Position numbers and translations under genes: made by a program. A model generated the notes under the pieces. The model did not search any database. It was not told where the DNA came from and worked only from the letters and a program-made list of their open reading frames with translations. Positions 8,615-34,522 of a stretch of 36,358 nt of DNA are shown here, piece after piece (the first letter of the stretch is position 1; each line of letters begins with the position of its first letter). The DNA is from a virus: positions 1-36,358 of IMG/VR virus record IMGVR_UViG_3300025664_000013. One strand, written 5' to 3'.

Positions 8615-8950
8615 TTAAGAGGTGGCGTGGGCCGATTGAACCTCGACCGTGTAGGATGGGGTGCCGGTGGAGACGACTTGGACGACGGCGCCGTACTCTC
8701 CGGCAACACGTGCATTGGTGGAGATGCCAGCGCCGCCAGCGGTGACGTAGCAAGCCTCAACGCTGCCGCTCGTGGACGGAATCGCGCAGGTGCCGCCGGG
8801 GTGGCTCACGGTCCAGAAGAGTGGGGCAGAACCGCTGACGTTGGTGACCTTGACGGAGTGACCGGCGCCGGAGAGGACCACGACATCGGCACCAACGGAT
8901 GCGGCGGTTGCGACATAGACGACGTTCTTGCCGCTGTAAGTTCCTGCCAT
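8615..8950 (-). CDS. Candidate capsid decoration or head-fibre protein
   Basis: 111 aa, ATG at 8950 with AGGAG upstream. A beta-rich, Gly/Ser/Thr/Val sequence (VVYVATAASVGADVVVLSG, VKVTNVSGSAPLFWTV, SYTVEVQSA) without catalytic residues. It is the first minus-strand gene after the major capsid gene, interrupted only by the plus-strand nuclease, and capsid decoration proteins are usually found there. Alternative: a small fibre or lysis-associated protein. Confidence 0.5.
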   Translation of the reverse strand: MAGTYSGKNVVYVATAASVGADVVVLSGAGHSVKVTNVSGSAPLFWTVSHPGGTCAIPSTSGSVEACYVTAGGAGISTNARVAGEYGAVVQVVSTGTPSYTVEVQSAHATS

Positions 8951-18549: not shown

Positions 18550-19314
18550 CTAGCCAAGGATAGAATTGGCGTACTGTTGCAGCGGGCAGTTGTCGCCAAA
18601 CAACGACTTGAACGTGTCGGGCTTGTTCTCGGACCAATAACGCAGACCGTCGCGAATGTTCTGCTGCCAGTCGGGACGCGGCCGGATTGACGATTTCTCA
18701 ATGCTGCCCGGCAGTTCTTTCAGCCATTCGGCAGAACCAGCAACGTCGGGGTAGCGGTATGGTTCAGTACCGATGCGGAGCGTTTGCTCCACGTGTTCCC
18801 AGGCGTTGTGGAGATTTTCGTCAAGCATGCCATCGTTCAGCAGTTGTTGGCGAGTGAACAGGCACCATGCGCCAATGGAGTGGAAGTAATACTCCACGTC
18901 ACCGTCAGCATCGACGGGTCCGCCGTAATTGGCCTCGCCGTGGTGAGCGAAACTCAGTCCGGTAATGCCGGTCTTGGCAATACGAACGTACTCCGTCACG
19001 GCCTTCGGTGACTGGATGATTATGTCGTCCTCCAGCGTGAACAGGTAGTCGCAGCCGCGGTCAAGCAGGAACTGGAGTCCGATGTTCTTGGCGGCGGCGA
19101 CGCCACCGTTGTGATCCATACCGATATACGTGCCATCCATTGACTGGACGGCTTTCTGGACTCGACGGTAGGAGCCACGATGCTTTTCGTCTGATCCGTC
19201 GTTGACGAATACAATGTGGTCAACTACGTCGGTCAGGTGCTTGCGGACGGACTTGACGCATTTTTCTGCGTACTCGGGGCGGTTGAATGAGCAAATCGTG
19301 ACGCCGATTGTCAC
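18550..19314 (-). CDS. GT2-family glycosyltransferase
   Basis: 254 aa, GTG at 19314 in a GTGA overlap with the integrase stop. TIGVTICSFNRPEYAEKCV opens the GT-A nucleotide-binding fold. FVNDGSDEK and FTLEDDIII give the acidic DXD-type site. The middle contains YYFHSIGAWCLFTRQQLLNDG and AWEHVEQTLR (acceptor-side acidic residue). The C-terminal segment is helical. Likely uses an NDP-sugar donor. Last gene of the glycan block before the portal. Confidence 0.7.
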   Translation of the reverse strand: MTIGVTICSFNRPEYAEKCVKSVRKHLTDVVDHIVFVNDGSDEKHRGSYRRVQKAVQSMDGTYIGMDHNGGVAAAKNIGLQFLLDRGCDYLFTLEDDIIIQSPKAVTEYVRIAKTGITGLSFAHHGEANYGGPVDADGDVEYYFHSIGAWCLFTRQQLLNDGMLDENLHNAWEHVEQTLRIGTEPYRYPDVAGSAEWLKELPGSIEKSSIRPRPDWQQNIRDGLRYWSENKPDTFKSLFGDNCPLQQYANSILG

Positions 19315-20207
19315 TCTGCGCGCTTCTCGTCAAGTCGTGCAACACTTTCACGAAACTTCGCCGGGTCAATGTTGAGCGCGTTAACGATAGCCGAAGACTT
19401 CGACATATCGGCTGCGGCATACCCAGCCGTCGTGCTAGGATCACTGTGACCCATGAGGTTTTGTGTGGCGATCAAATCTCGTGACGCTCTGTAAAAGTGT
19501 GTGCCAGCCCAGTGTCGAAAAGTGTGCATTGTGGACTTGATCCCGAGACTATGCAAAAAGCGGTTTCCTTTTCTGGAAATGCTTGCTGCCGTTTCGTTCC
19601 ACAACCGACCGCTTGCTGGCATCGGCAGCTCATTGAGCGCGACGAGCACATCGGGGTGCAATGGCACATAGCGAGATTTATCACCTTTGCCATGTGTAAT
19701 CAGAAGCGTGCCATTGTCCTCGTCAATGTCCGCGCGCTCAATGAACGCTATTTCTTGACAGCGACACCCGCAATATGCGCCTAGCAGGAACCAGCACTTC
19801 TTGACTGGATCAGCGTTAGCGATTGCTAGGTTAATGTCGTCGTCGGACATTGGTCGTGGACGACCTCCGTGCATGCGTGGCTTTTTGATGCCGCGCACCG
19901 GGTTGAAATGATCACCCTGCTTGCCGTCGTTCGTCTCAAGCCGAGGGAAAACGGGGTCGCCGTTGTCGCCCGTTTCGCAAAACGTGTACAGCGAGTTCAG
20001 CGTGCTTAGCCACATACTGCGCGTCTTCGGCGTAATGTCACGACCAAGCCACTGAATGACCTTCTGCTCAGTAGCCGCTCCGAAGCCAACCTCACGCGAA
20101 TACTTGCGAAGATACCTGCGCCTCACTGCGATTGTGTTTGGGAGCAATGCTCGGAACTTCATATCGGCCTCAAAGGCTTCCATGATTTCCTCGTCAGACA
20201 TGGTCAC
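19311..20207 (-). CDS. Tyrosine recombinase / integrase
   Basis: 298 aa from GTG 20207 (ATG at 20201 also possible), in a GTGA overlap with the EndoVII gene. The N-terminal SAM-like domain (RALLPNTIAVRRRYLRKYSREVG) is followed by the catalytic core: GCRCQEI (Arg149), HGKGDKSR (Lys174), HTFRHWAGTHF (His228, Arg231), LMGHSDPSTTAGY (His254, Tyr263). All catalytic residues are present, so it is likely active in site-specific integration or resolution. It is unusual to find it inside a glycan gene block, far from an obvious attP; the tRNA-like sequence near 9.55 kb is the only candidate. Confidence 0.85.
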   Translation of the reverse strand: MTMSDEEIMEAFEADMKFRALLPNTIAVRRRYLRKYSREVGFGAATEQKVIQWLGRDITPKTRSMWLSTLNSLYTFCETGDNGDPVFPRLETNDGKQGDHFNPVRGIKKPRMHGGRPRPMSDDDINLAIANADPVKKCWFLLGAYCGCRCQEIAFIERADIDEDNGTLLITHGKGDKSRYVPLHPDVLVALNELPMPASGRLWNETAASISRKGNRFLHSLGIKSTMHTFRHWAGTHFYRASRDLIATQNLMGHSDPSTTAGYAAADMSKSSAIVNALNIDPAKFRESVARLDEKRAE

Positions 20208-20809
20208 TTGTGCGACTCCAAATAGTATGCAGCAGCCACAAGCAGCATTCCCTCATCACCGAACTTACCGAGACCAACGTTGCACTGAAAGCACAACAAC
20301 CCACGAACGCACTTGCCGCACGTCGGTGTCTCGTCACAACAATCGTGATCGTGGTCAACGTGGAGATGTTTGCCACGACCCTGTTGTGTCGGTGGCTTCC
20401 CACAAATCGCACAACCATAGTCCTGAGATATCAGAATCTCTAGGTATCGTTCTGGCGTGAGCTTGTACGCTCGCCGCAGATGGTAAACCCACTGCTGATC
20501 AAGTAGTTCCTGACGGAACTCTTGATAGCGCTCCCGAAAGTATGCATTGATGGCGTCGCGGTTTTCCTCGCGATACCGTGTGTCAGCATCCCTCTTGCGT
20601 TCTGGATTATCTAACGCCCATTGTTTCGTGTACGCTCGCAGGTTGTCCTGATTGGCTTCGTAATAGCCAGTCTTCCACTCATGCTGGCATACCTTGCACC
20701 AAGCACGATAACCAGTCTTGCGGCTTGAGTCGCGATTGAACTGATCAATCGGACGCGTCTGCTTGCATTTTGTGCATTGCAATTCTGTCAACTCGATGGT
20801 ATCATCCAC
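20204..20809 (-). CDS. Recombination endonuclease VII-like nuclease
   Basis: 201 aa, GTG at 20809 with a strong GAGGAGG nine bases upstream. N-terminal zinc finger-like CTKCKQTRP...WCKVC. C-terminal core: CAIC (133-136), HLHVDHDHDCC (His/Asp at 151-155), TCGKCVRGLLCFQCNVGLG, typical of EndoVII, which cuts Holliday junctions and branched DNA. Coupled to the integrase. May be a homing-type nuclease or a packaging-linked resolvase. Confidence 0.75.
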   Translation of the reverse strand: MDDTIELTELQCTKCKQTRPIDQFNRDSSRKTGYRAWCKVCQHEWKTGYYEANQDNLRAYTKQWALDNPERKRDADTRYREENRDAINAYFRERYQEFRQELLDQQWVYHLRRAYKLTPERYLEILISQDYGCAICGKPPTQQGRGKHLHVDHDHDCCDETPTCGKCVRGLLCFQCNVGLGKFGDEGMLLVAAAYYLESHK

Positions 20810-22010
20810 CTGTCGGAACCTCCTCTAAGGTTTCGGCCGGTGCCGGGGCAGTTCCTGCTGCGCCCGGCACACTCATAAACTGAGAGTATACCTCATGCCA
20901 GTCGATCCACCTCTCGGTGATGTCGTGGCGTTCTGCGATGGTGCGATTAATCTTGCCTTCAGCGCGTCGCACATCAGGATCAAGCAACTCTTCCAGGTGA
21001 CCAATCCACGAAGACGGCTTGTCATTGCGAGCAACGCGCCCGGCGCTTCCTTCATCAATCAAGATTTGGTGTTCAGGAAAACCTGCGGACACGATGTAGG
21101 GAACTCCAGCACAACAGGCTTCCAGCGCCTTCAGGTATGACTTCGCTTCGTTAAAACGACACCGCTCTAACGGGATAAGCATTACTGCGACTGGACCCCA
21201 TAGGTTTGGATACTGCGCGATGTGAGTCAGCGGCGCAGCTGCAACCTGAACCTTTGTTGCATCAATTCCAGCGACGTCCCAAACCTTTTTCACTCCCGGC
21301 ACTTGGCTGTCGCCGCCGTGATAAAACGGCAATCCGTAATCCTCAAGGAACTGCGGCAAGCCAATGCTGCGAAGGACTGGGATGTCAGCAGCCCGCCATT
21401 GCAGACCACCGATCCAACTAATGTAGCCCACACCCGGATCGTTCTGCGGCCAGCGCTCCAACTGAATTGCGTTCCGCACCACAAAAGCGGGAACACCCAG
21501 TCTCTCCATCTCCCGTTTGAGAGGTTCAGTTGAAACGGTTACAAAATCACACTCAGCGAGCATGTTCCAATAATGGTCTCTGTTAAAGTCAATATTATTT
21601 TTTGGATCAGTGGTCGCGTGCGCCACGTTACTTTTCGGAAGAGCGTGAAAGGCATCATCCAAATCCGCCCCGACCACTTGACCCGCCGCACGAGCGCGCC
21701 GCACTTGTTCGACGCCATCGCGATGCATCCACCTTTGACTCAGCCAACAGTCTGGATCGTGCCAGTTGCCTTCCATGTCAAGCGTACGAATATGTCCATC
21801 CGGCGCAACCTCAAACCGCCACGACAAGTGATTGTCATAGCCGTGCTTGTTCAGTTCCATCGCTGGCATTGCGCCACGTTGCAGGAAAGTCCCCCCGAAC
21901 GACATGCGCTGTTGTCCAGGCACGAATACTTGCTTCTGCTGAATCTGTGACTGGTACTCATCAACCACGGGTTCCGTGGAAAAGTCCGTACTAAAAAAGC
22001 CGATTTCCAC
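20802..22010 (-). CDS. GT-B glycosyltransferase (GT4-like)
   Basis: 402 aa, GTG at 22010 with AAGGGG upstream. The middle reads ADLDDAFHALP and CDFVTVSTEPLKREMERLG, followed by FVVRNAIQLERWP (hinge region in GT4). The C-terminal domain has YISWIGGLQWR, LPFYHGGDSQ and FNEAKSYLKALEACCAGVPYIV, the E-x(7)-E-like donor-sugar loop. An N-terminal ~100 residues with a Gln-rich stretch precede it. Retaining transfer from an NDP-sugar is likely. Ends with an Ala/Pro/Glu tail. Confidence 0.7.
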   Translation of the reverse strand: MEIGFFSTDFSTEPVVDEYQSQIQQKQVFVPGQQRMSFGGTFLQRGAMPAMELNKHGYDNHLSWRFEVAPDGHIRTLDMEGNWHDPDCWLSQRWMHRDGVEQVRRARAAGQVVGADLDDAFHALPKSNVAHATTDPKNNIDFNRDHYWNMLAECDFVTVSTEPLKREMERLGVPAFVVRNAIQLERWPQNDPGVGYISWIGGLQWRAADIPVLRSIGLPQFLEDYGLPFYHGGDSQVPGVKKVWDVAGIDATKVQVAAAPLTHIAQYPNLWGPVAVMLIPLERCRFNEAKSYLKALEACCAGVPYIVSAGFPEHQILIDEGSAGRVARNDKPSSWIGHLEELLDPDVRRAEGKINRTIAERHDITERWIDWHEVYSQFMSVPGAAGTAPAPAETLEEVPTGG

Positions 22011-22045
22011 GCTGCCCCTTTTTGTTGGAACGTGTTTGTGTTGCG

Positions 22046-22306
22046 TTACTGAGTTGCTAGCGGAGTGACGACATCTTTCTCGTCCTCAACGGACTCATCG
22101 CGCTCATCAACGTCCGGCAGAACCGCCTCAACCTCGTCGGACACAACGGTCGCCAGGTGGCCGATAACGCCCTCGACCTTGCGAAGCGCCGAGTTGACTA
22201 ACGCTCGCGTCCTTGACAGATCGCCAGCGAGGTTGGCGGCAGATAGGTCGTCACGGATTGCGGCAACATCGGCCTTGATGCGGTCAATAACAGATTGCTC
22301 AGTCAT
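22046..22306 (-). CDS. 86-aa charged helical protein
   Basis: ATG at 22306 in an ATGA overlap with the preceding GT, GGAAG upstream. Sequence VIDRIKADVAAIRDDLSAAN and RALVNSALRKVEGVIGHLA predicts a helical hairpin or coiled coil. The C-terminus is acidic (DERDESVEDEKDV). Could be a small scaffold for glycosyltransferase association; no family recognised. Confidence 0.55.
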   Translation of the reverse strand: MTEQSVIDRIKADVAAIRDDLSAANLAGDLSRTRALVNSALRKVEGVIGHLATVVSDEVEAVLPDVDERDESVEDEKDVVTPLATQ

Positions 22307-23133
22307 CGCTTCCGCCCCTCGTCAACCAGCGCTTGCATCGCAACTGGGTTGCCGTTGGCCCGCGCGTATCGTCCGCCCAGCTCGTTGTTCACGCCTGGCT
22401 GCGTCTGTCCGTTCCACATCTTCACTTGCCATGAAGCGCCAACCTGGCTGCTGATAACGGACGGATGCCACAGGTGGAGGATGTCATTATCGGTGTACTG
22501 CACCGGACCCCACAGCGTGCAGAGGGCGTAGAAAGTGGAAACGTCTTCGCCGCCCCATCCGACGAACTGCTCGTCCATGCCGCCGATGGCTTCAAACGCC
22601 TCACGCGGCATGACCTGACACATCGCCCCATAGATGTTGATAGGCCCAGAGCCGTCCTTGCTGTCGATATCCCACGCCGGTGGCGGCGATGGAATCCACA
22701 ACGGATGACATGGATCGGATTCAAGCAAGCGCTCCGTTGTGGGACGGCGCAATCTATAGAGATGCTCGTACGGGACAAACCACGAACGCACGCCAGCATG
22801 ACGATCCCGACGCAACCTGGCCGCACAGAACTCAATCGTTTCAGCGGGCAGCAGAGCGTCCGCGTCGAGGATGACGATAATGTCGCCCTTCGACTTCTTG
22901 AACGCATTATTGACCGCTGCAGCCTTGGAGAACGGGCGACGCTTGCGGCACCAGCGACGCTCGCTGCCCCGGTCCCGACCCAGCACGATCTCGACATCTG
23001 GTAGCACGCATTCCCAGTGGGCCTTCAGCCACTCCCAATTCCGTCTGCGCGCAGGATCATCGCCACCCAATGGAACGAGGAGCGAAATAAGGTGTTCGCG
23101 ACGACGGTGCTTACCGCGACTGCGCAGGGGCAT
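22303..23133 (-). CDS. GT27/GT7-like glycosyltransferase
   Basis: 276 aa, ATG at 23133. LISLLVPLGGDDPARRRNW starts the GT-A fold. FSKAAAVNNAFKKSKGDIIV leads to LDADALLP (DXD metal site). IYGAMCQVMPREAF leads to the motif GGMDEQFVGWGGEDVS, the GWGGED signature of GT7C/GT27 C-terminal domains, with HLWHPSV further on. Such enzymes often transfer GalNAc or galactose, but donor is not deduced. Overlaps the preceding gene by 23 bp. Confidence 0.75.
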   Translation of the reverse strand: MPLRSRGKHRRREHLISLLVPLGGDDPARRRNWEWLKAHWECVLPDVEIVLGRDRGSERRWCRKRRPFSKAAAVNNAFKKSKGDIIVILDADALLPAETIEFCAARLRRDRHAGVRSWFVPYEHLYRLRRPTTERLLESDPCHPLWIPSPPPAWDIDSKDGSGPINIYGAMCQVMPREAFEAIGGMDEQFVGWGGEDVSTFYALCTLWGPVQYTDNDILHLWHPSVISSQVGASWQVKMWNGQTQPGVNNELGGRYARANGNPVAMQALVDEGRKR

Positions 23134-23887
23134 AGTGTTCTTTCACTTGTTGAAACATGGCGAGAAGATCGTGCTGCATAGACTTGATACGATCGGTCGG
23201 TGCGGCTTGCAGTTTGCCGAACGTGATGGGCTGACCGATGGAGCTAGCCCAGTCGTCCCATTTAAAGAACGCGCCTTCGTTCGGATTCGACCGCATGGCG
23301 GGAAAAACTTCCGCACGTCGTGGAATACCGAACGCGTCTGCGACGATTATCCCGTGCAACGCCGACGACACGATCTTGCGGCACGAGCCGATGGCGTTGA
23401 TGACCTCGCGGGGATCGCCGCCAATGTCGATGACCGTGGCCCGGTAGCCGTACTTCTCCGCTTTCGCTAGCTCCTTCGGAGCCAAGAGAAAGTCTGACCA
23501 GTGAGCGACGATGCCAACCTCATGCTTTTGATTGCACGACGGATGGAGCATCGGAGCCAATAGTCCGGGGTCGCCAATAACCGGCGTACCGGTTGACTTG
23601 ATGCGGTTGAGCGTCAGCGGGCCGCGCACACCGAGAACGGTTGCGTCGGTCAAGTCTGTGATCGTGGACTCTTGTAGCTGGCCTGATCCGGCGATGATGC
23701 CGGTCCAGCCAGAACGTGGCAGCGCGTCCAGCACCGAGCCACAGCACACTATGTCAGCATCTGCGGCGGATGACCACGTAACGTCAAGTCCTGCGAAACG
23801 CTGAAGCAGTAGGGGCGTTAGGAGATCGCCAAGGTTGGGGACGTATCCGAGTACGCCGCCACCTCTCCACCAGTACGCCGTTGGCAT
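23111..23887 (-). CDS. Polysaccharide pyruvyl transferase-like protein
   Basis: 258 aa from ATG 23887 sharing a base with the TAA of the HNH gene, GGAG upstream. YVPNLGDLLTPLLLQRFAG (the N-x-G-D loop), VLGVRGPLTLNRI, IGDPGLLAPML and SSALHGIIVADAFGIPRR follow the order of the pyruvyl-transferase family (PF04230), where H-G in the last motif belongs to the active site. It would put a pyruvate ketal on a sugar, giving it negative charge. It is slightly short for the family but all blocks are present. Confidence 0.7.
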   Translation of the reverse strand: MPTAYWWRGGGVLGYVPNLGDLLTPLLLQRFAGLDVTWSSAADADIVCCGSVLDALPRSGWTGIIAGSGQLQESTITDLTDATVLGVRGPLTLNRIKSTGTPVIGDPGLLAPMLHPSCNQKHEVGIVAHWSDFLLAPKELAKAEKYGYRATVIDIGGDPREVINAIGSCRKIVSSALHGIIVADAFGIPRRAEVFPAMRSNPNEGAFFKWDDWASSIGQPITFGKLQAAPTDRIKSMQHDLLAMFQQVKEHYAPAQSR

Positions 23888-24330
23888 TATTGCTCCGATA
23901 TGTCGTGTCCGTTCTTCAGCCACCTCTGCGCGACCCAAGCAGGATAAGTAATTGAGTGGATGCCGATGAGTCCATGTCTATGATGGTCAGAACACAGCAC
24001 GAGCATGTTGCCCTCACTGTCGAGAAATTCTCGTAACGCAGGGTCTGTGGCCTCTTTCATCACAGGAAAGTCGGCCAGGATTTTCGCCGGATCAATCCTA
24101 TTGACGAGCGCCCACTCAATGCGCCAGTGATGGGTCTCCATGTGCTCGCCTTCGGGTAAACCCGATTGACGCACACCGCAAATCCAGCACGCCTCATCCA
24201 GCTCGTAAACGAGGTGATGATGAACACGCTTGTACTCAGCAGACGCTTTGCGCGGATCGTGTGCTGGGTACCAAACCGATTCGGTCAGCGTGCGCGTTTG
24301 CGTGTGTCCCTCGACGCTCGCGCCGCTCAT
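23887..24330 (-). CDS. HNH-like nuclease
   Basis: 147 aa, ATG at 24330 in an ATGA overlap with the VIT-like gene. Motifs: CWICG, then HMETHHWRIEWA (paired catalytic-type His), and NMLVLCSDHHRHGLIGIHS, matching the Cys-His ββα-metal HNH fold. Length between His motif and LCSDHH is larger than in small HNH proteins. May be a homing nuclease or a packaging HNH; inserted among sugar genes without breaking the overlaps, so long established. Confidence 0.65.
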   Translation of the reverse strand: MSGASVEGHTQTRTLTESVWYPAHDPRKASAEYKRVHHHLVYELDEACWICGVRQSGLPEGEHMETHHWRIEWALVNRIDPAKILADFPVMKEATDPALREFLDSEGNMLVLCSDHHRHGLIGIHSITYPAWVAQRWLKNGHDISEQ

Positions 24331-24797
24331 GCCGACGCCGGAATCAGTGAGACCACGAGCAACGTAATGCCAGCAGCGGTCAGGAACGTGGCGAACGCGG
24401 TGGCATAACCTCGCCAGCCCTTACGCTTCTGCCAGCCGATCCAGGTTGCCACGGCCAGACATCCGATTAGCGATACGATCAACGCCACGGTTGTACCGAA
24501 CACGAAGAACGGCCAGACCGCAATCAGGCTGCCGCCGAGTGACGCTGCGAACATGACCAACGCCACGGGCAGGCTGGAACGCCAGTTGCCATCGTGTTTT
24601 TCGTATTCACCAAAGCCCATCGACACGCCAGCAGCGACAGCGCCGCCAAGACCGCCGATTGCGATTGCCGACTCTGGTGACTTATGCACCAGCAGTCCGA
24701 AGATAAAGCCGATGATGGACACGATGCCATCGAAAGCTCCGAACATGGCTTCTTGGCGCGCCTCTGTGCTCATGGTATGCTTTGGTTGATGGAACAT
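24327..24797 (-). CDS. VIT/CCC1-like membrane protein
   Basis: 156 aa; ATG at 24797, with a second ATG at 24773 just before the conserved part; ribosome site weak for both. FGAFDGIVSIIGFIFGLL, GLGGAVAAGVSMGFGEYE matches TM1-TM2 of VIT1/CCC1 iron/manganese transporters, including the SMGxGEY metal-binding motif. The large cytosolic metal-binding domain of plant/yeast homologues is absent; three further spans follow directly. About five spans in total. Might move Fe2+/Mn2+ (cofactor of GT-A enzymes) or has been repurposed. Presence in a phage is unusual. Confidence 0.65.
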   Translation of the reverse strand: MFHQPKHTMSTEARQEAMFGAFDGIVSIIGFIFGLLVHKSPESAIAIGGLGGAVAAGVSMGFGEYEKHDGNWRSSLPVALVMFAASLGGSLIAVWPFFVFGTTVALIVSLIGCLAVATWIGWQKRKGWRGYATAFATFLTAAGITLLVVSLIPASA

Positions 24798-24820
24798 TTG
24801 GACCAGACTCTCATTGATAA

Positions 24821-24848
24821 GACAGGAATTGGATTAGGTTTTCCTGTC
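24821..24848 (-). terminator. Inverted repeat after FkbM-type gene
   Basis: Perfect 8-bp repeat (GACAGGAA 24821-24828, TTCCTGTC 24841-24848) with a 12-nt loop, in the 74-bp gap between the FkbM-like and VIT-like genes. On the minus strand it is followed by TTATC, a poor U-tract. It could be a weak terminator or RNA-stabilising element separating two sub-operons. Confidence 0.4.
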
Positions 24849-24871
24849 AGTGGCAATGGAATGGGAATGAA

Positions 24872-25540
24872 CTACGGCAAGCAGGTTAAGGAATTGAACC
24901 ATCCAAAGTTACCCTGCACTTCCGAATAACAATCCAACCACTCGCGCAACACCGGCTGCGGCCACCACGGTTCGTGCATGCTGACGAATAGCGGGATCTC
25001 GTGAGACGCCAGGAACGGTGCGAGTTCTTCTAAGAACAACGCTTCCGCGCCCTCCACGTCAACCTTGACTAGACTGATCGTGTCTAGGTCAACGCCCATG
25101 CCGTGCAACAGGTCTGGCAACTTCCAGCAGGTGATCTCTCGACCCTCCGCCGCCAGCTGGGTCATCGTGCTGCCCCAACCGAACTCATGTGGCGCAATGT
25201 GCGTCGTACCGGTATGACCAGCGATTGCACCGTCCACGATGGTTATGCGGTCGTACATGCCGTTGGCGAGTACGTTGAGGTTCGCATAATCTAACGCAAC
25301 GGGATCGGGTTCAATGGCGATGACGTTGCAGTCATGTCGGGATGCTGCCCACATGGCGATCGGTGCGGCCCAGCACCCAACGTCGATAAATGTACTGCCG
25401 TCAGTGACAAAACGGTCAACAACATCCAACGTTTCTTGCTCCCAGATGGCAGCTTCAAACTCGTTCCAGAATGACCACTCAGAGTTTTTGGCCGGTTCGC
25501 TGACTTGCCATCGAATACCATCACGGCTGACCTGTCGCAT
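24872..25540 (-). CDS. FkbM-family methyltransferase
   Basis: 222 aa, ATG at 25540 sharing a base with the TAA of the preceding gene. SAM motifs: STFIDVGCWAAPIAMWAA (motif I, with unusual GCWA), NVIAIEPDPVALDYANLNV, TISLVKVDVEGAEALFLEEL, which is the FkbM KxDVEGxE signature. These enzymes O-methylate sugars or polyketides. Adjacent to another methyltransferase, so the product may be doubly methylated. Confidence 0.75.
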   Translation of the reverse strand: MRQVSRDGIRWQVSEPAKNSEWSFWNEFEAAIWEQETLDVVDRFVTDGSTFIDVGCWAAPIAMWAASRHDCNVIAIEPDPVALDYANLNVLANGMYDRITIVDGAIAGHTGTTHIAPHEFGWGSTMTQLAAEGREITCWKLPDLLHGMGVDLDTISLVKVDVEGAEALFLEELAPFLASHEIPLFVSMHEPWWPQPVLREWLDCYSEVQGNFGWFNSLTCLP

Positions 25541-26214
25541 TACTCGACGTTGACCATTCTGTGACCACGCACCATGTGCCCAGTGGCACCAGGTGTCGGG
25601 ATGTCAATTGGGTTTTCCCACGTGCCGTACATCTTCACAGTTTGAATCTGTGGGATCAGACCATCATTGGCCACAGCTTCCCAGACCGCCGCAGTAACGC
25701 CTGGCGTGTGTGGCGACAACAGGTCATCAAAGACCACGACGCCACCAGGCATCAGAAGATTCTTAGCGATGTTTAGATCGCCACGAACCTGATCATAATT
25801 ATGCGACCCATCGATGTGGATGTACCGAAACGTACGCTCCAGACCGCAAGCATTCAAAGTCCAGGACGGACCGTGAACGATTTCGGGCAGTTCAGCATGA
25901 AAGCGGCGCCAGTTGTCTTCAAACATTTGACGACCAAAGTTTGGTGTGTAGTACCGCGCCCGTTCAGCCAAGTCCTCGTCGGACTCAGTCATGCCGTCAA
26001 AAATGTCGCAGATGATCAGACGCTCATTCGGCTGGCGCATGTAGCCGAGCAGGATGGCGCTACAACCTTGATAGCAGCCGATCTCTAGCAGGTCGCCGGT
26101 TATGCCGAGTTCACGCTGTTTGGCGTCGATAACGTCAAAGAGAACCCTGTCTCTCGGCTGAAACCAACCAGCGACGGAGTTTGCGCCGGTGGTGATGTAC
26201 TCAGCGCGGTCCAC
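25540..26214 (-). CDS. Methyltransf_24-type SAM methyltransferase
   Basis: 224 aa, GTG at 26214 overlapping the acyltransferase by 14 bp. GDLLEIGCYQGCSAILLGYM (motif I), LIICDIFDGM, FRYIHIDGSHNYDQVRGDL, LLMPGGVVVFDDLL are standard for this class (TylF/MacF and Methyltransf_24). The HIDGSHNYDQV stretch provides a metal/catalytic site often found in sugar O-methyltransferases. Cytosolic. Confidence 0.75.
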   Translation of the reverse strand: MDRAEYITTGANSVAGWFQPRDRVLFDVIDAKQRELGITGDLLEIGCYQGCSAILLGYMRQPNERLIICDIFDGMTESDEDLAERARYYTPNFGRQMFEDNWRRFHAELPEIVHGPSWTLNACGLERTFRYIHIDGSHNYDQVRGDLNIAKNLLMPGGVVVFDDLLSPHTPGVTAAVWEAVANDGLIPQIQTVKMYGTWENPIDIPTPGATGHMVRGHRMVNVE

Positions 26215-26782
26215 TGTGACCCCAGACGCCCTTCACGACCGTACCTTCCGGCACAACCGAGTATGGAGTCACTACAGCACCCGCGCCGATAATGACGTTA
26301 TTGGCAATGCGGACCCGCTCACAGATCGTTGCGTTCGCCCCGATGTAGCACTCGGTGCCGATCGTTACGTTCCCACAGATCGTGGCTCCAGGAGACACCG
26401 TGCTGTAGGCGCCGATCTCAGCCCTCGTAATACTAACTAGGGTGTTGATGTGAACATGAGATTCTAATGCCACAGACGCAAGCAGGGAGGCCAATGGTGC
26501 TACCACAGACCCACGGTCAATAGCAATATCGCCGCCAAGGACAGCGGATGGGTCAATCAGTGGCGCTGCGGCCTTTAAATGACTCCATTTGTTGGCGATC
26601 TTACGCCGGAGGTGCGGGTCGTTAACGCCGATGAGAATTCGTCCAGTGAGATCTTTTGGCGGCTTGGGATATTCCGGCGAGTCGTCATCATAGACGGTGA
26701 GCGTTTTATCGCCACGTGCACGATGCCAAATCTCTTGGATGTCAATCGAATGGTTGCCCGCACCGATAATGGATACCGTCAC
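26201..26782 (-). CDS. PglD/NeuD-like acyltransferase, left-handed beta helix
   Basis: 193 aa, ATG at 26782 in an ATGA overlap. N-terminal Rossmann-like part (VSIIGAGNHSIDIQEIW, YDDDSPEYP, ILIGVNDPHLRRKIA). Then hexapeptide repeats (AEIGAYSTVSPGATICGNVT, IGTECYIGANATICERVRI, NNVIIGAGAVVTPYSVVPEG) building a left-handed beta helix. Homologues acetylate amino sugars or sialic acids. The His in ESHVHINTLVS near residue 110 may be the catalytic base. Acts on a nucleotide-activated or free sugar. Confidence 0.8.
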   Translation of the reverse strand: MTVSIIGAGNHSIDIQEIWHRARGDKTLTVYDDDSPEYPKPPKDLTGRILIGVNDPHLRRKIANKWSHLKAAAPLIDPSAVLGGDIAIDRGSVVAPLASLLASVALESHVHINTLVSITRAEIGAYSTVSPGATICGNVTIGTECYIGANATICERVRIANNVIIGAGAVVTPYSVVPEGTVVKGVWGHSGPR

Positions 26783-27456
26783 CAGCGATACCCGCTGCTA
26801 CGGACCAGTCCAGCGTGTGAGCACAGCGGCGGATCGTTCAGACCACCCCAGTAGCCGAACGTAAACGCTGCGGCCTTAAGTGGCTCGGTGACGCCTAGCT
26901 CTAGGAAGTTTGTGGCGCTGTCGAGAACGTACTGTGCGACATCGCGGGTAGCCAGAAATGGCTGGAAGCCAAAGTGGCGCTCATGCTCTACCCACGTATG
27001 AACGTCGTCCGTGCGTTCGATATAGTCATCCGGCGACATGGCGTACACGCCACCAGCTGCGATCTCTTCAGTGTTGAACGGCGGCCGCATCAGCATGAGC
27101 TGTGCCAGGTTGGATCTCGACTGCAACACTGCGGCCATGTCTGCCAGGTCAATCTCACCGATCAGGGGCGTGTCGTCCTCAACCGCAAACACGTAATCGC
27201 AACCACTGGCGACGAACGTTTCCAGCATCGACTGGAAACACCCGCCGAGACCGCTGCGTTCGGGGTGTGCCACGAGCGTCAACCATGGGAATGTCTCGCG
27301 GAGCCAGGACTGGAACTCGGGGTCACCGCTGTCGTCAATGATGTAACCAGCATCAAACTTGACGTTGTCACGAATGAAGCGTTCAACGGATGCCATTGTC
27401 TCTTCAATGTGCTGACGACGGCCATCTACTCTGATGGTGAAGCAGTAGGTGCTCAC
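26779..27456 (-). CDS. GT-A glycosyltransferase-like protein
   Basis: 225 aa from GTG 27456 in a GTGA overlap with the preceding GT. STYCFTIRVDGRRQHIEETM then AGYIIDDSGDPEF (IIDDSGD nucleotide-binding), and YVFAVEDDTPLIG (EDD metal site). The C-terminal half keeps FNTEEIAAGGVYAMSPDDY and HFGFQPFLATRDVA. It lacks a strong canonical GT2 ending, so the family is remote. Probably cytosolic. Confidence 0.65.
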   Translation of the reverse strand: MSTYCFTIRVDGRRQHIEETMASVERFIRDNVKFDAGYIIDDSGDPEFQSWLRETFPWLTLVAHPERSGLGGCFQSMLETFVASGCDYVFAVEDDTPLIGEIDLADMAAVLQSRSNLAQLMLMRPPFNTEEIAAGGVYAMSPDDYIERTDDVHTWVEHERHFGFQPFLATRDVAQYVLDSATNFLELGVTEPLKAAAFTFGYWGGLNDPPLCSHAGLVRSSGYRW

Positions 27457-28136
27457 CGCGATCCCCATTTCTGGTTCATCAGGGCGATGTAGCCATGAAC
27501 GTTTTCCCAACGCTCGGGTCCGGTGCTAACCGAGCCATGCGTCACGTTGCTCTGTGGTACGTAGGCGATCTTCCAGCCAGCCTCAAGGAACTGAAGTGAC
27601 AAATCCACGTCATCGTAAGTTCGCTGAAAAGCAATATCAATGGGACATTGCAATAGCGCAGTTCGCCGCACTGCCATCGCCGCGCCCGTAGCGCCGAGTT
27701 CTTCGGTGTTCGCTAAGTGTTCATCGCTGCGGTTCTCGCCGCCCGCGTGACCGATGCCATGCCACGTACGGATGCAAGCGGTTTGGATGCTACCGTCACG
27801 GTTCAGGATGCGAGGGCCAGCCATGCCAACGGTCTCGTCATCAAACACGTCTAGCAGCGGCGACAGCCATCCGTCATGCGGGTAGGCGTCGCAGTCCATG
27901 AAGATCACAATGTCAGTATCGGCATGTGACGCACCAAGCGCCTTGGCTGGAGCGCACCCAATATTCACTGACTGCGGGAACAGATCACAACGCGCACCAT
28001 CGGGCACAACGTATGAGTTCGTGTTATCCACGACAATCACGCGGGCTTCTGGAGACGTGCGTGTCAGTTCGGTCAGGCATTGATCGGTGAGCGCCGGGTC
28101 GCCCCAGATGGGCACGACCACCGAAGCGGTTCTCAC
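27453..28136 (-). CDS. GT2 glycosyltransferase, rhamnosyltransferase-like
   Basis: 227 aa from GTG 28136 in a GTGA overlap with the RmlD-like gene, AAGGA upstream; a longer frame overlaps that gene. VVVPIWGDPALTDQCL, VIVVDNTN, FMDCDAYPHDGWLSPLL (DXD), ELGATGAAMAVRRTAL, and TYDDVDLSLQFLEAGWKIAYVP (acidic catalytic motif) are a full GT2 set of the type common among rhamnosyltransferases. Coupling to the RmlD-like gene fits a deoxysugar, but the sugar is not proven. Confidence 0.8.
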   Translation of the reverse strand: MRTASVVVPIWGDPALTDQCLTELTRTSPEARVIVVDNTNSYVVPDGARCDLFPQSVNIGCAPAKALGASHADTDIVIFMDCDAYPHDGWLSPLLDVFDDETVGMAGPRILNRDGSIQTACIRTWHGIGHAGGENRSDEHLANTEELGATGAAMAVRRTALLQCPIDIAFQRTYDDVDLSLQFLEAGWKIAYVPQSNVTHGSVSTGPERWENVHGYIALMNQKWGSR

Positions 28137-28999
28137 GCCCAGTCCTTCAGGTACTCTTCCAATGCGTCCCGCCACGGCCGCATAGAATTTTGCCCCGTGA
28201 GTTCCAACACATAGTTCCGCATCGCCTCACTCGGAGGACGCGGCGCATGGAAGGTTGTCGCAAAGAACTGACTACTCGCAGGCTTCAGCGCAATATCGTC
28301 ACGGCCAAGGATCTCAAGGATTGCGCGTGCCACGTCATAGCGGGTGCATTGGCCTTCGCTGACCGTATGGTAAGTGCCGTAATCGTCTGACGTGATCAGT
28401 CGTTCAATGACGGCGGCGAAGTCGGGCGCATAGGTGGGGCTGCCCACCTTGTCAATGACGGCCACGATCGTGTCGCAGCCTTCGTTGATCTGGGTTAGTA
28501 CGTGGTGCACGAACTTGTGGTCGAGATGTGGACCGCCGCCCATCATCCATCCGGCCCTCATGATTATGTGCTGATCGACCCATTGCCGAACGTAGTGCTC
28601 GCCTTGCAGTTTGCTGGCACCGTAGACGTTGATCGGTGATGGGGTATCAAATTCCGTGTACGGTTCGTCGCTCTCGCCGTCGAAGATTCCGGCCGACGAG
28701 ATGTATCCCATCGGCACACCACGGCGCCGACACTCCAGCGCCACGTTCTTCGTCCCGATAGCGTTGGTCAACCAAGCGTGGTCAGGATCTTCCTCGCACT
28801 TCTCCAGCGACGTTTCCGCTGCGAGGTGCAGGACGATCTCTGGACGGGCAGCGTTGAATCCGCTAGCAACGTCTGCACAATCACGCACATCTAGTTCTGT
28901 GATGTCGGTTGGGATGACATCGTGGCCGCATTTCTGCAAGTACGGCACTACGGCGCTACCCAACATCCCGCGCGCTCCGGTCAGGAGTATGGTTGACAC
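28133..28999 (-). CDS. RmlD-like sugar reductase (SDR)
   Basis: 288 aa from GTG 28999 with AGGGAGC upstream; the longer frame to 29059 lies inside the previous gene. LLTGARGMLGSAVVPYL (NAD(P)-binding G-x-x-G-x-x-G), HLAAETSLEKCEEDPDHAW, SSAGIFDGE, YGASKLQGEHYV (YxxxK active site), the RmlD order for dTDP-4-dehydrorhamnose reductase or related enzymes. No RmlA, RmlB or RmlC is present. It may reduce a host-made NDP-4-keto sugar. Confidence 0.75.
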   Translation of the reverse strand: MSTILLTGARGMLGSAVVPYLQKCGHDVIPTDITELDVRDCADVASGFNAARPEIVLHLAAETSLEKCEEDPDHAWLTNAIGTKNVALECRRRGVPMGYISSAGIFDGESDEPYTEFDTPSPINVYGASKLQGEHYVRQWVDQHIIMRAGWMMGGGPHLDHKFVHHVLTQINEGCDTIVAVIDKVGSPTYAPDFAAVIERLITSDDYGTYHTVSEGQCTRYDVARAILEILGRDDIALKPASSQFFATTFHAPRPPSEAMRNYVLELTGQNSMRPWRDALEEYLKDWA

Positions 29000-29021
29000 G
29001 CTGCTCCCTTTTTGTGAGCGG

Positions 29022-29762
29022 TCAGAAGAAGTCTGGGTTGTTGCGGAGGTCGCCAGCAAAGGCTTTCTCTTGCGACCACATGTTGTTCAACTGCGCTTCG
29101 TCAATCAGGTGCTGAAAGCCACGCCCAGCAATCCGATCGTCGTTCGGAATCTGCTGTTGGATTGCGAGCTTGCGATCTCTCAATGGCTGGCACCACGGAG
29201 CAAACCCAAACCACTTGCACAGCAGCCCATCGGCGTAGACTTTCACATCGTTGTGGTAAGTCTCGTGACGCCCAGTGGCGTAGTTGCCGTCAGCGTGACG
29301 ATGGAGTAACCGACTCTTATAACCGATACTCGGTCCATCCGTGTAGCCGTACCAACACTGGTCGGTCAGCTCGGCATCGTGGTCAAGGTTGACACGCTCT
29401 TGCATGTCCACCATGGCGACGCCACGAACGACGGCAGCGGCGTAGCCCTGGGCGTCTAGCGTGTCGCACGCTTGGCGCGCGTCACCACAGACAAACTCGG
29501 TTGCGTTTAGTGCGATCTTCCAACCCGACACGCCACGCTCTATGTCCATGACCTCTTGGTCGCAGTCGGACGCCCGGAAACATGAATTGCGTGACTGGCG
29601 GATCTCCCAATCCGGCGCAAGCTCACGAACGATATCCATGCTGCGATCTGTGGATGCGTAGTCAATGACGATCGCATGGTCCACTAGCGGCAGATGGTGC
29701 CTGATAAAGAACGGTGTGAGGAGCTGCTCGTTCCACCAGTGGGTGATGAGCGTTACTGCCAT
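29022..29762 (-). CDS. Glycosyltransferase-like protein (Glyco_tranf_2_4-type)
   Basis: 246 aa, ATG at 29762 overlapping the C-methyltransferase by 10 bp, GAGAG upstream. TLITHWWNEQLLTPFFIRHH, AIVIDYASTDRSMDIVREL, and a WKIALNATEFVCG acidic stretch correspond to the domain with N-E-x(2)-L-x(2)-F and D-x-G/S-T-D-x-S of this group. Later LHRHADGNYATGRHE and FGFAPWCQPLRDRKL contain several His and Trp. Cytosolic, substrate unknown. Confidence 0.6.
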   Translation of the reverse strand: MAVTLITHWWNEQLLTPFFIRHHLPLVDHAIVIDYASTDRSMDIVRELAPDWEIRQSRNSCFRASDCDQEVMDIERGVSGWKIALNATEFVCGDARQACDTLDAQGYAAAVVRGVAMVDMQERVNLDHDAELTDQCWYGYTDGPSIGYKSRLLHRHADGNYATGRHETYHNDVKVYADGLLCKWFGFAPWCQPLRDRKLAIQQQIPNDDRIAGRGFQHLIDEAQLNNMWSQEKAFAGDLRNNPDFF

Positions 29763-30970
29763 ATCTCTCTATTAGGAAAATATCGCACGAAAACGTCATC
29801 GTCATTCTGACGCACCGCACGAATCCGCTGCACGATTTCCCGACTGAAGTTCCATGCCGTGATCACGATGCACAGCGGAGTCTTGATACGCTCCAGAAAA
29901 TCAACACCCACGATCGGAGTATTGCCGCCAGGGGTGAACGATCCCTGCTTCATAGGATTGTCGTCCACGATCCAGTCAAGGTTAACCTGGCTGAAGTTCA
30001 GCATGGTCATGGCCTTAGCCGCCGCCCCATACCCAACACACGAATAACCAGCGTCACGGTACTCATCGACTACCTGATACAACCACGTTGCGGTTGCTGC
30101 GGCTTTAGCACCAAAGTGAACGTAAGTGTCGGACTCATACAATCCGCAGTCGTTCTCGTAGTCCAAGAGTGCGTCAACGCTTGGATCGGGATTGCCATCG
30201 AGGCCGAGCTTCCACAGGTAGCTGCTCCCATGGATCGTAGGAATGTCAACCGACAGAACAGTAAGTCCCGATCTGGCAGCCAGCGTCAGAAACGACAGCG
30301 CCGAAAAATACGACGCGTGTTCCATATATGCACAATCAAACTCGCCGTTTTGTAACCATCGACACTGACTCGTCTGCACCCACAGACGCCCACCATCAGC
30401 CAGCGCATTTCGGCAGCCGATTAGAAATCCGTGAGGGTTACTGACGTGCCCGAGAACGTTCATCGCAATCAGCGCATCGTACTTCTTGCCGATGATGTTC
30501 GGCGTGTCAACCGTCCAGAATTCGCACAGCGTTGTCACGCCGTTCGCTTCAGAGATCGCCGTTAGATTCGCGGCCGGGTCAACATTGAGAACGTCATGCC
30601 CCTTCGCTCCGAACTTGCTCAGCAGACTGCCGTCGTTCCCCGCTATATCCATGACAGACAAGCAACGATACGGGAACTCGTCAATGACTTTCTGAACGAA
30701 GCCGTCGAAGTAATCTGACAGCGTTGCAGTCGTGCCGCTGACGTATGCGTAATCCTTGAACAGTAGCTCCGGCGCAACCGAATGCGTGAGCTGACTATGC
30801 CAACACACCTCACAGACGTTGATCGCAAGCGGGAACTCCGGCAGATCAACAGTGCCGTCATGATACGAATTAGCAAGCGGCTGCTCGCCCAAATCGCAAT
30901 ACGTGACAAGCCGTCCGCTACCGCACGCCAGACAGTGCCGCATCGGCTTGCACTGTTCGGTCTCCACCAT
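29753..30970 (-). CDS. Zinc-binding sugar C-methyltransferase
   Basis: 405 aa; ATG at 30970 with GGTGA six bases upstream. N-terminal zinc domain C-x2-C (CLACGSG) and C-x2-C (INVCEVCWHSQL), then LLFKDYAYVSGTT, SAM motif LSVMDIAGNDGSLLSKF, NVLGHVSNPHGFL (catalytic Tyr/His region), and a C-terminal Rossmann-like domain CVGYGAAAKAMTML, WIVDDNPMKQG. Same architecture as the TcaB9/NovU type, which adds a carbon methyl group to an NDP-keto sugar. This indicates a branched deoxy sugar. 53 bp overlap with the SDR gene. Confidence 0.8.
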   Translation of the reverse strand: MVETEQCKPMRHCLACGSGRLVTYCDLGEQPLANSYHDGTVDLPEFPLAINVCEVCWHSQLTHSVAPELLFKDYAYVSGTTATLSDYFDGFVQKVIDEFPYRCLSVMDIAGNDGSLLSKFGAKGHDVLNVDPAANLTAISEANGVTTLCEFWTVDTPNIIGKKYDALIAMNVLGHVSNPHGFLIGCRNALADGGRLWVQTSQCRWLQNGEFDCAYMEHASYFSALSFLTLAARSGLTVLSVDIPTIHGSSYLWKLGLDGNPDPSVDALLDYENDCGLYESDTYVHFGAKAAATATWLYQVVDEYRDAGYSCVGYGAAAKAMTMLNFSQVNLDWIVDDNPMKQGSFTPGGNTPIVGVDFLERIKTPLCIVITAWNFSREIVQRIRAVRQNDDDVFVRYFPNREIWQ

Positions 30971-31811
30971 ACGCACTCACCAACGATTCCGTTATCGACT
31001 CGGCTGTCTCAGAGAACGTGAAGTTGTACTCGTTCTCAAACTTGGCTGAAGAAATAGTGAAATCGTAACAAGGCGATGGTTCGCCCAGAATGAGCGGCAC
31101 GTCAAGTGCGGCTGCAACAACTGCGCCAAGGTGGTCGACGCGGTCGTTGAATGATGCGAGGTTGTAGATGCCAGGCTCGCCGTCACCATCGAGGATCGCA
31201 GTAATGGACCGACAGAGGTCGTTGAGTCCGAGGATCGGACGTTGAATTTTGGGGTTGGCGATTCGCACATATCCGTCGTTGATGGCAGTATCAACCATCT
31301 TCGGCAACATAATGTCCAGGCGTTGATTCGGCGACACGCCGCAAACGGTGCCAAACCGTAATCCGTACGTGCGCTTGCCGGACAGACTGGCGATCATGTC
31401 GTCCATCAGCTTGCTGGCGTCATACCAGTTCGATCCGACGTTCAGGTCTTCGCTCGCAGCCGTTGCGCCAACGCCGGAGTAGATGCTAGAGCTACTAGCG
31501 TAGATCAACCGTTGGCTTGGCCGCATATGGCGCAACAACCGTTCAAACGCCACCACGTTGTTGCGAAACGCTCTGACGGGATCGGCGGTAGCGGATTGGA
31601 CCGACGAGTGTGCCGCCAGCAGGATGATGTCGTCGTAAGCCTGGATCAGACCTTGTGACATATCGGCGTAGTCAATCGCCTGACTGCGAATGTTGCCAGG
31701 GTTACCACGAATGCCGATATCAATGACCTTCGCGTAATGGTCAGTGACTAGCAGATGGTGGACTAAGGCGCTACCGATGTAACCTGTGCCGCCGATAACG
31801 AGCGTACTCAT
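30918..31811 (-). CDS. NDP-sugar epimerase/reductase (extended SDR)
   Basis: 297 aa, ATG at 31811. Starts TLVIGGTGYIGSALVHHLLV (G-x-x-G-x-x-G NAD motif), LLAAHSSVQSATADP, YASSSSIYSG (Ser), and NWYDASKLMDD (YxxxK), then RFGTVCGVSP and PILGLNDLCRSI, the standard order of UDP-/dTDP-sugar epimerases. First gene of the glycan block after terminase. Could be an epimerase/dehydratase or 4-ketoreductase. Confidence 0.8.
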   Translation of the reverse strand: MSTLVIGGTGYIGSALVHHLLVTDHYAKVIDIGIRGNPGNIRSQAIDYADMSQGLIQAYDDIILLAAHSSVQSATADPVRAFRNNVVAFERLLRHMRPSQRLIYASSSSIYSGVGATAASEDLNVGSNWYDASKLMDDMIASLSGKRTYGLRFGTVCGVSPNQRLDIMLPKMVDTAINDGYVRIANPKIQRPILGLNDLCRSITAILDGDGEPGIYNLASFNDRVDHLGAVVAAALDVPLILGEPSPCYDFTISSAKFENEYNFTFSETAESITESLVSAYGGDRTVQADAALSGVR

Positions 31812-31814
31812 GTG

Positions 31815-32078
31815 TCACGCTTCGACTTTACGCAAGTTCTCCGAGTCGCAGTAGCGGCAGTGGTTGACGGTGGCTTCCCACGAGCAGTCATCGCAGACCC
31901 AGAACTTACTCATGCGCGGCATGCCGCCAGCGACGCTGAAGCCGTTTCGCTTGAAGAACGCCACGTCACGCGAATCTGTCACGTTAATCATGCCGCGTCT
32001 GTCTGCCGTGTAGTGATTGCCGGTCAGATCGCTCGTAGCGCCTTTGCAGTTTTCGGCACCAAACGTCATCTCGGTCAC
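31815..32078 (-). CDS. 87-aa zinc-ribbon protein
   Basis: GTG at 32078 with AAAGGAG eight bases upstream. Central GMINVTDSRDVAFFKRNGFS is a helix-capped motif shared by many small phage proteins. C-terminus FWVCDDCSWEATVNHCRYCD is a zinc ribbon (C-x2-C, C-x2-C). Position between TerL and the sugar genes. May bind nucleic acid or assemble with terminase. Confidence 0.6.
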   Translation of the reverse strand: MTEMTFGAENCKGATSDLTGNHYTADRRGMINVTDSRDVAFFKRNGFSVAGGMPRMSKFWVCDDCSWEATVNHCRYCDSENLRKVEA

Positions 32079-33942: not shown

Positions 33943-34522
33943 CTGAAAGTCGGGTTCCAAAGTCAAGGATAATCGCCTCACGAACAGCGTCGGAAATGTC
34001 CACGCCTTCAAGCGATGCGGTCATGGCGCTAACGATCTGGTCGGCGGTGTCTGAGTCAATGCGGGCATGCAGCCGAGCGATGCGGTCCTCAAGATCCAGT
34101 CTCGCCATACCCATCAGGATGCGCTCGCAGCGATCAATCGACCGTTCGTACGCTTGAAACAGCACGTCGATCTGAGTGGCGACGTTCTTGCCACCAACGT
34201 CCTTCAGGTTGGTCAGTTCCTCGACCTTGTCCCGCAACACATTCTTGAGCTTCTTGACCTCACCAGCCAGCTCAGACAGTTCGGTGAACGGATCAACGAT
34301 CGGCTCAAAGCCTTCTATCGCCAACAACTTGCGGGCATCACGGTCTAAGATTTCCACCCGCGCCGCCTTGTTGTGCGATTCGGTAGATCCACCATGACGG
34401 TAGCACCTGCCGATTCCGAGGTGATCAGTACGTTCACCTGCGACGTTCTGGCAAACGACACCCTCCGGCTGGTTGGCACGCTGGGCGCCACATATGTCCT
34501 TATCGGGTCCGTGTCGTGCCAT
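33896..34522 (-). CDS. Terminase small subunit-like protein
   Basis: 208 aa, ATG at 34522. N-terminal CGAQRANQPEGVVCQNVAGE, then TDHLGIGRCYRHGGSTES, is the C..C...H-G-G pattern of actinophage terminase small subunits, probably zinc-binding. The middle (SELAGEVKKLKNVLRDKVEE) is a coiled coil for oligomerisation. Recognises the packaging site and hands DNA to TerL. A TTGAAA/TAGGCA pair places a weak promoter so that transcription would start about at this ATG. Confidence 0.7.
   Translation of the reverse strand: MARHGPDKDICGAQRANQPEGVVCQNVAGERTDHLGIGRCYRHGGSTESHNKAARVEILDRDARKLLAIEGFEPIVDPFTELSELAGEVKKLKNVLRDKVEELTNLKDVGGKNVATQIDVLFQAYERSIDRCERILMGMARLDLEDRIARLHARIDSDTADQIVSAMTASLEGVDISDAVREAIILDFGTRLSGGQQPGRQQAVGAIG

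Follow-up and report, generated by a model that had tools for sequence, protein, structure and literature searches.

A sugar-gene locus with a constant two-glycosyltransferase core and a variable cassette, predicted to glycosylate virions, among the head genes of an uncultured phage family

Bacterial O-antigen and serotype loci combine constant flanks with exchangeable cassettes of sugar genes, and in chloroviruses a virus-encoded, soluble cytoplasmic machinery decorates the major capsid protein (MCP), methylation included. For phages, glycosylated virions have been documented in a few mycobacteriophages, which use a handful of genes for the purpose: The virions of Che8, Corndog, and Myrna are reported to be glycosylated by phage glycosyltransferases (GTs; PMC12363180), the methyltransferase and GT enzymes of cluster O reportedly act on the capsid and the tail tube (PMC11600133), and mycobacteriophage glycans have been located to the C-terminal ends of both proteins (PMC12619734). 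Here we analyze a stretch of viral DNA of 36,358 bp (IMG/VR record IMGVR_UViG_3300025664_000013; referred to as the window) in which a block of sugar genes separates the terminase gene terL from the portal gene. With a probability of about 0.72, we read this block as a virion-glycosylation locus, that is, virion proteins would be glycosylated in the cytoplasm by a conserved core of two GTs together with exchangeable sugar-tailoring genes.

Among the described systems, cluster O (Corndogvirus) resembles the locus in that a methyltransferase and several GTs are embedded in head genes (Firecracker gp33–gp36, an O-methyltransferase and three GTs between portal and protease), and the GT family phrog_1721 is common to Firecracker gp35, Che8 gp109, and the window protein encoded at 22303–23133 (phmmer 2.5e-11 against gp35). 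The cluster O set differs, however, in its size of only four genes, which include no short-chain dehydrogenases/reductases (SDRs), C-methyltransferase, or pyruvyl- or acyl-like enzymes, in its position between portal and protease, in carrying phrog_854, and in its capsid lineage. The window likewise has GT families in common with Che8 (cluster F) and Myrna (cluster C), namely phrog_1721 and, by way of Myrna gp234, phrog_1579 and phrog_2456, but the Che8 GT genes lie at the right genome end in a stretch without head genes and have no genes for tailoring nucleoside diphosphate (NDP)-sugars beside them. The chloroviruses, whose soluble machinery is comparable in description, infect eukaryotic algae. 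With O-antigen loci the phage locus shares the pattern of constant flank and cassette, whereas it is free of Wzx/Wzy-like proteins and of an initiating transferase and lies in a head operon. Judged by gene content, the locus differs from the documented phage cassettes in its size of about a dozen sugar enzymes, in having NDP-sugar tailoring, and in pairing a constant core with a swapped cassette.

The window is part of a circular phage with a map of ~86.2 kb: An IMG/VR record of 86,323 bp (G001) matches it without a mismatch and carries the window on across the record's own ends, and these ends overlap each other by 99 bp, which together indicate circularity. TerL (32092–34011; phrog_38, 2.9e-90) and portal (16356–18527; phrog_2662, 8.6e-41) are 13,564 bp apart, and the gap holds 19 open reading frames (ORFs), all on the minus strand and tightly packed, with junctions that are mostly overlaps of 1–14 bp. 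The original prediction, made from the letters of the window, had described a 13-kb block of overlapping sugar genes at this place, and this is borne out. Profiling of the block proteins against Pfam and PHROGs matched all the enzymes it had named (two SDRs, a zinc C-methyltransferase, two methyltransferases, a PglD-like protein, a pyruvyltransferase-like protein, and six GTs), while it had overlooked a VIT1-like membrane protein and the genes of a tyrosine recombinase, an endonuclease VII-type nuclease, and an HNH endonuclease. In agreement with that earlier inventory, no RmlA/B/C-type gene was found within the block; a weak seventh GT-like gene (5634–6269) falls outside it. The ORFs between TerL and portal are:

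31815–32078, minus strand, small cysteine-rich ORF (homologues in G002, G004, G005, G006, G007, G012, L070, L076)
30918–31811, minus strand, extended SDR of the NDP-sugar epimerase/reductase type (Pfam Epimerase, 8.5e-21)
29753–30976, minus strand, zinc-binding sugar 3-C-methyltransferase of the TylC3/TcaB9 type (Methyltransf_13, 1.1e-15; Methyltransf_14, 2.8e-28)
29022–29762, minus strand, GT2-like protein (PF13704, 2.3e-4, 22.0 bits, under the cut-off of 27.5)
28133–29059, minus strand, RmlD-type NDP-4-keto-sugar reductase (PF04321, 1.4e-68)
27453–28175, minus strand, GT2 glycosyltransferase (GT27453; PF00535, 1.3e-13)
26779–27510, minus strand, GT2-like glycosyltransferase (GT26779; phrog_3047, 1e-8)
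26201–26782, minus strand, PglD/NeuD/VioB-like left-handed beta-helix protein (Hexapep, 3.8e-18; VioB 7txp, 1.9e-16)
25540–26214, minus strand, TylF/Methyltransf_24 O-methyltransferase (PF13578, Methyltransf_24, 2.9e-16; TylF, 1.3e-6)
24872–25540, minus strand, FkbM-type methyltransferase (PF05050, 3e-7)
24327–24797, minus strand, VIT1-like integral membrane protein with 5 predicted spans (PF01988, 2.1e-9; hydropathy)
23887–24330, minus strand, HNH endonuclease (phrog_8048, 1.5e-18)
23111–23938, minus strand, polysaccharide pyruvyl-transferase-like protein (PF04230, 8.5e-10)
22303–23133, minus strand, GT2/galactosyltransferase-like protein (phrog_1721, 6.3e-15)
22046–22306, minus strand, small ORF without assigned function (counterpart in G002, 41% over 90 aa)
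20802–22010, minus strand, GT402, GT-B/GT4-like glycosyltransferase, core gene (AlphaFold model and Foldseek)
20204–20809, minus strand, endonuclease VII-type HNH nuclease (PF02945, 1.4e-19)
19311–20207, minus strand, tyrosine recombinase (PF00589, 6e-17)
18550–19314, minus strand, GT254, GT2 glycosyltransferase, core partner of GT402 (PF00535, 5.3e-10; phrog_2456, 1.1e-18; phrog_1579, 4.2e-13)

Relatives of the phage were gathered via the portal and via the capsid protein, i.e., without use of any glycan gene; the resulting counts rest on few, partly overlapping metagenome contigs. Two of the 15 capsid loci (L068 and L077) end before the position in question, and all remaining ones, which amount to nine distinct lineages, carry GT402. 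GT402 is thus present in 9/9 distinct MCP-defined relatives with contigs long enough to cover the locus, and the block is no isolated insertion. The partner GT254 adjoins GT402 in the window, G002, L076, G005, L067, and L070; L073 lacks it, in G006 the contig end cuts it off, and L072 has only a partial match of 44%. The recurrence of the block proteins in related phages, with amino-acid identities far over third-position identities, indicates that they are more than chance reading frames and are under selection as proteins (47–81% versus 34–44%; 81% versus 43% for GT402 of the window and G002).

The locus sits among head genes in every relative, and its place there differs. It is found between TerL and portal in the window, G002, G007, L076 (in the order TerL, GT402, recombinase, GT254, portal), and G012/G013, where G007, G012, and G013 were found through GT402 and contain the GT402/GT254 pair at this site; it directly follows the MCP gene in G005, G006, L067, L070, L072, and L073. 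In five portal loci (L005, L007, L008, L009, and L012) TerL abuts the portal with 13–85 bp in between, so that an empty site exists, and in those of them with more sequence (G005 and G006, together with their relative G004) GT402 lies just downstream of the capsid gene, as does GT254 where the contig reaches. Since the core transferases are found beside the capsid gene where TerL abuts the portal, the locus is characteristic of the family and changes its place. The wedged position emphasized in the original prediction is thus correct for the window and not essential for the system, and the comparison with related phages that it had proposed as a check yields a core present in all relatives that could be checked and a variable accessory set. 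Capsid and portal trees do not unite all TerL–portal arrangements, which indicates that relocation and mosaic exchange are both at work. The cysteine-rich ORF at 31815 travels with the locus, either on the MCP side or adjoining TerL.

The accessory enzymes recur in the relatives in differing sets and positions. The order GT27453–GT26779–PglD is common to the window and to a post-capsid cluster of G007, which adds a nucleotidyltransferase, and in L067 the capsid gene is followed by GT402, GT254, a methyltransferase, GT26779, PglD, a GT, GT27453, and an FkbM gene. A further locus, L113, holds relatives of the RmlD-type reductase (67%), the methyltransferase at 25540 (64%), GT27453 (57%), and GT26779 (38%) as well as a PglD-like gene, paired as GT26779–PglD and RmlD–GT27453. 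Identities to GT27453 amount to 42% in L067 and 36% in G007, and those to GT26779 to 36% and 35%, respectively; the FkbM-type methyltransferase has a homologue in L067 (41%) and the pyruvyltransferase-like protein one in G002 (57%). The clearest exchange is seen between G012 and G013, two metagenome assemblies of which G012 is probably complete, given its end overlap of 123 bp: Over 9,550 bp, ending where GT402 begins, they are 99.5% identical; the first 432 bp of this gene are 71% identical, and no alignment is possible from there to its 3' end. The next ~1.0 kb (the end of GT402 and GT254) is 87% identical and is followed by 3.5 versus 5.7 kb of differing enzymes (two SDRs, a GT, and an unassigned protein versus a GT, a PglD-like protein, FkbM, RmlD, a GT, and a methyltransferase), beyond which identity returns to 98% just past the cassette and to about 89–97% further out. 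Judged by these alignments, the difference looks like a serotype-like exchange. We tentatively extend this to a virion serotype locus in tailed phages, a proposal to which we give slightly less than even odds: A constant two-GT core would initiate a protein-linked glycan, and a cassette of NDP-sugar, methyl, pyruvyl, and GT genes would be replaced wholesale between near-identical phages, giving coats that are distinct antigenically or with respect to receptors.

According to the virion-glycosylation reading, soluble cytoplasmic transferases would assemble an oligosaccharide late in infection, with at least one structural protein as its carrier, and the position in the late operon would have enzymes and capsid made simultaneously. 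GT402 (GT-B, GT4-like) and GT254 (GT2) would start the glycan or place its inner sugars, the remaining transferases would lengthen it from host NDP-sugars, and its tailoring would fall to the SDRs, the C-methyltransferase, the O-methyltransferases, and the pyruvyltransferase-like protein. In favour of the reading, the structural neighbours of GT402 include the protein O-GlcNAc transferases SdgB and GtfA. An RmlD-type reductase and a mycarose-type C-methyltransferase without RmlA/B/C in the block suggest that the host pool of deoxythymidine diphosphate (dTDP)-4-keto-6-deoxyglucose is drawn upon, which fits the earlier proposal of host NDP-sugars as feed; a C-methylated 6-deoxyhexose from this pool would be the likely special sugar. 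Recombination between related phages would then exchange the tailoring cassette, and the coat would vary among near-identical phages. Inferred are the use of a virion protein as acceptor, the identity of that protein, and how the sugars are arranged and built; the branched, pyruvylated, and acylated glycan proposed for the window stays a prediction. Candidate acceptors are the C-terminal tail of the MCP (PPSFGDS), which most family members retain as PPSxxDS/A in the alignment, a small Ser/Thr-rich protein encoded after the MCP (8615–8950), and the tail tube. If the reading is true, an elaborate coat is a core trait of a whole lineage of uncultured phages, which alter it by cassette exchange, as bacteria alter their O-antigens; this would imply strong selection in nature on the surface of the phage particle by some agent. 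G012 and G013 would be a ready natural experiment on the purpose of such a coat, and the locus offers sugar chemistry a C-methyltransferase and a panel of soluble transferases to test.

Enzymes of the same types are found in surface-polysaccharide loci, and PimA, TarM, and PglA are among the structural neighbours of GT402. The block could therefore serve to remodel the host envelope (teichoic acid, arabinogalactan, or another surface glycan) in infection or lysogeny and to block superinfection as gtr clusters do; the tyrosine recombinase makes lysogeny possible. We nevertheless consider this unlikely: GtrA (PF04138) has no match in G001, G002, G005, or G007, while 7/14 controls match, the initiating phosphoglycosyltransferase Bac_transf (PF02397) has none either, while its controls do match, and no transmembrane segment is predicted in any GT. 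Three or more membrane spans are predicted in G001 only for the tape measure and the VIT1-like protein, neither of which is a GT, so that the complete genome presents no recognizable flippase, polymerase, or membrane-bound transferase, be it a membrane-anchored GtrB, a multi-span GtrC, or a protein of the Wzx/Wzy type. Moreover, the genes sit in a late head operon, and Pfam recognized no repressor or excisionase among the 43 early-region and other ORFs scanned. Phage structural proteins are never exported from the cytoplasm, and soluble GTs in the absence of GtrA and Bac_transf and with few multi-span proteins fit assembly on such a protein and fit envelope remodelling poorly. Consequently, of the two roles proposed originally, virion glycosylation is favoured and remodelling of the host surface is not.

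The two nucleases and the recombinase inside the block, the varying accessory content, and the loss of canonical motifs in two enzymes would also suit passing cargo, i.e., morons carried by the HNH and recombinase genes and devoid of present function, with only the GT pair being of importance. This is quite improbable, since the accessory genes retain reading frames, overlaps, constraint, and pairings (GT27453–GT26779–PglD in G007 and the pairs in L113), and the swaps exchange glycan genes for other glycan genes, not for unrelated cargo. We regard as very remote that the transferases glycosylate hypermodified bases of the phage DNA: Phage GTs are known to hypermodify DNA (work cited in PMC12619734) and GT254 weakly matches TAGT (PF20691, 19.8 bits, cut-off 27.5), but the complete genome G001 contains neither the thymidylate synthase/hydroxymethylase family (PF00303) nor a C5-cytosine methylase, and the locus accompanies head genes, not replication genes. 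TET/JBP (PF12851) had no match, nor did its control give one, which makes that search uninformative.

Several observations weigh against virion glycosylation itself. The glycan is a prediction from gene content. GT402 has no Pfam match; its AlphaFold (AF2) model (pLDDT 87.5, pTM 0.83) is GT-B/GT4-like with PglA, PimA, MshA, SdgB, GtfA, and TarM as Foldseek neighbours, and SdgB and GtfA appear among many other GT4 neighbours; fold matches cannot separate protein acceptors from others. No scanned block protein, nor the protein at 5634–6269, matches phrog_854, the group of Che8 gp110 and Corndog gp38 that is reported to be essential, for which reason we describe the locus as working like the mycobacteriophage cassettes and do not file it as a strict member. 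The structure model of the MCP failed (pLDDT 31), and exposure of the presumed acceptor cannot be judged from it. Two enzymes may be altered: The GT at 29022–29762 reads NAT at the expected DXD position in a weak alignment to weak homologues and is possibly changed or inactive, and the PglD-like protein, like its relatives in G007, L067, and L070, reads Thr-Arg where PglD/VioB have their catalytic His, and may be altered in catalysis. The predicted hexapeptide protein is thus present, its function as an acyltransferase doubtful. Finally, the VIT1-like membrane protein has no place in a model of virion glycosylation.

Most of the enzymes retain their motifs. Aligned to the dTDP-glucose 4,6-dehydratase 6bi4, the SDR at 30918–31811 keeps GxxGxxG and YxxxK and has S-S-I in place of T-D-E; lacking the Asp-Glu pair of the dehydratases, it is probably an epimerase or reductase. 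The C-methyltransferase is closest to the D-mycarose 3-C-methyltransferase 4rv9 among PDB entries (6.3e-51) and keeps the YxEH active-site motif; a search for its donor gave only matches of 31–33% in three unrelated phyla, and no donor is named. Two starts differ probably from those called: The RmlD-type reductase would begin inside its ORF and the pyruvyltransferase-like protein near 23887.

The tyrosine recombinase has a complete R/K/HxxR/H/Y set in the alignment, is the sole PF00589 match in G001, and lies between GT402 and GT254 in the window, G002, G007, and L076. We considered it as the driver of locus relocation; this idea is weakened by G012, whose recombinase is encoded with the connector genes and whose glycan locus is still between TerL and portal. 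Being found elsewhere in the late genes of G012, the recombinase is not tied to the glycan genes. Within the late structural operon it occupies varying spots, either inside the GT block or between the head–tail adaptor and the tail terminator (G012rc 52361–53206). The overlapping genes around it leave no room for a normal attP, repeats flanking the block are only short imperfect matches as chance predicts, and a scan for promoters and terminators gave counts not above those of shuffled sequences. The block DNA has no similarity match among isolated phages, and a search of 85,000 genomes for prophages or hosts with the capsid protein found no relative. A host in Actinomycetota is suggested by TerL relatives in Arthrobacter, Glutamicibacter, and Brevibacterium, by an Rpf-type transglycosylase in G012, and by a DUF5925/AAA protein.

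Two genes downstream of the portal complete the picture of the neighbourhood:

9619–11403, minus strand, MCP, assigned from position and conservation (phrog_13692, 2.8e-100, a family with no function annotated in PHROG)
5634–6269, minus strand, further GT2-like protein downstream of the MCP (PF00535, 20.0 bits, under the cut-off; phrog_22332, 5.6e-5), kept in G007, L070, and G012 at 48–52%

A link between the C-terminal tail of the MCP and GT254 was examined and is not clean: The tail is missing in L072 and L073, and GT254 is absent in L073 but may be kept in part (44%) in L072. The capsid gene, uninterrupted in the window, is split in G002 (L026), G007 (L058), L076, and G012, in some cases with endonuclease-like ORFs between the pieces, which resembles interruption by self-splicing introns. 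A Ser/Thr-rich repeat protein with VSQSGAWSASVDGTV units (4578–5633) is a possible head or tail fibre and a possible glycan acceptor; its longer homologue in G007 (L054:3390–5141) is encoded near the portal, on the opposite side from the GT genes. A 632-aa protein at 2363–4261 without Pfam or PHROG match has, by eye, the GH26-like motif RPMPESNN and may be a virion-bound glycanase. What the window TerL has in common with its relatives is just the last ~105 residues (zinc ribbon and tail), at about 40% with G002 and G007 and 37% with G012; from these alignments, its ATPase/nuclease part seems to have been replaced while the C-terminal tail was conserved. TerL of G007 (L054:13894–16647, 917 aa) seems, judged by eye only, to contain an intein-like insert at Walker A (ASGK/ALDTPIATSDGW ... 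FLAGESLIPTHN/S). Lastly, one of the 43 scanned ORFs of G001 (L022–L024) matches the ADP-ribosyltransferase domain PF03496 at 6.8e-13.

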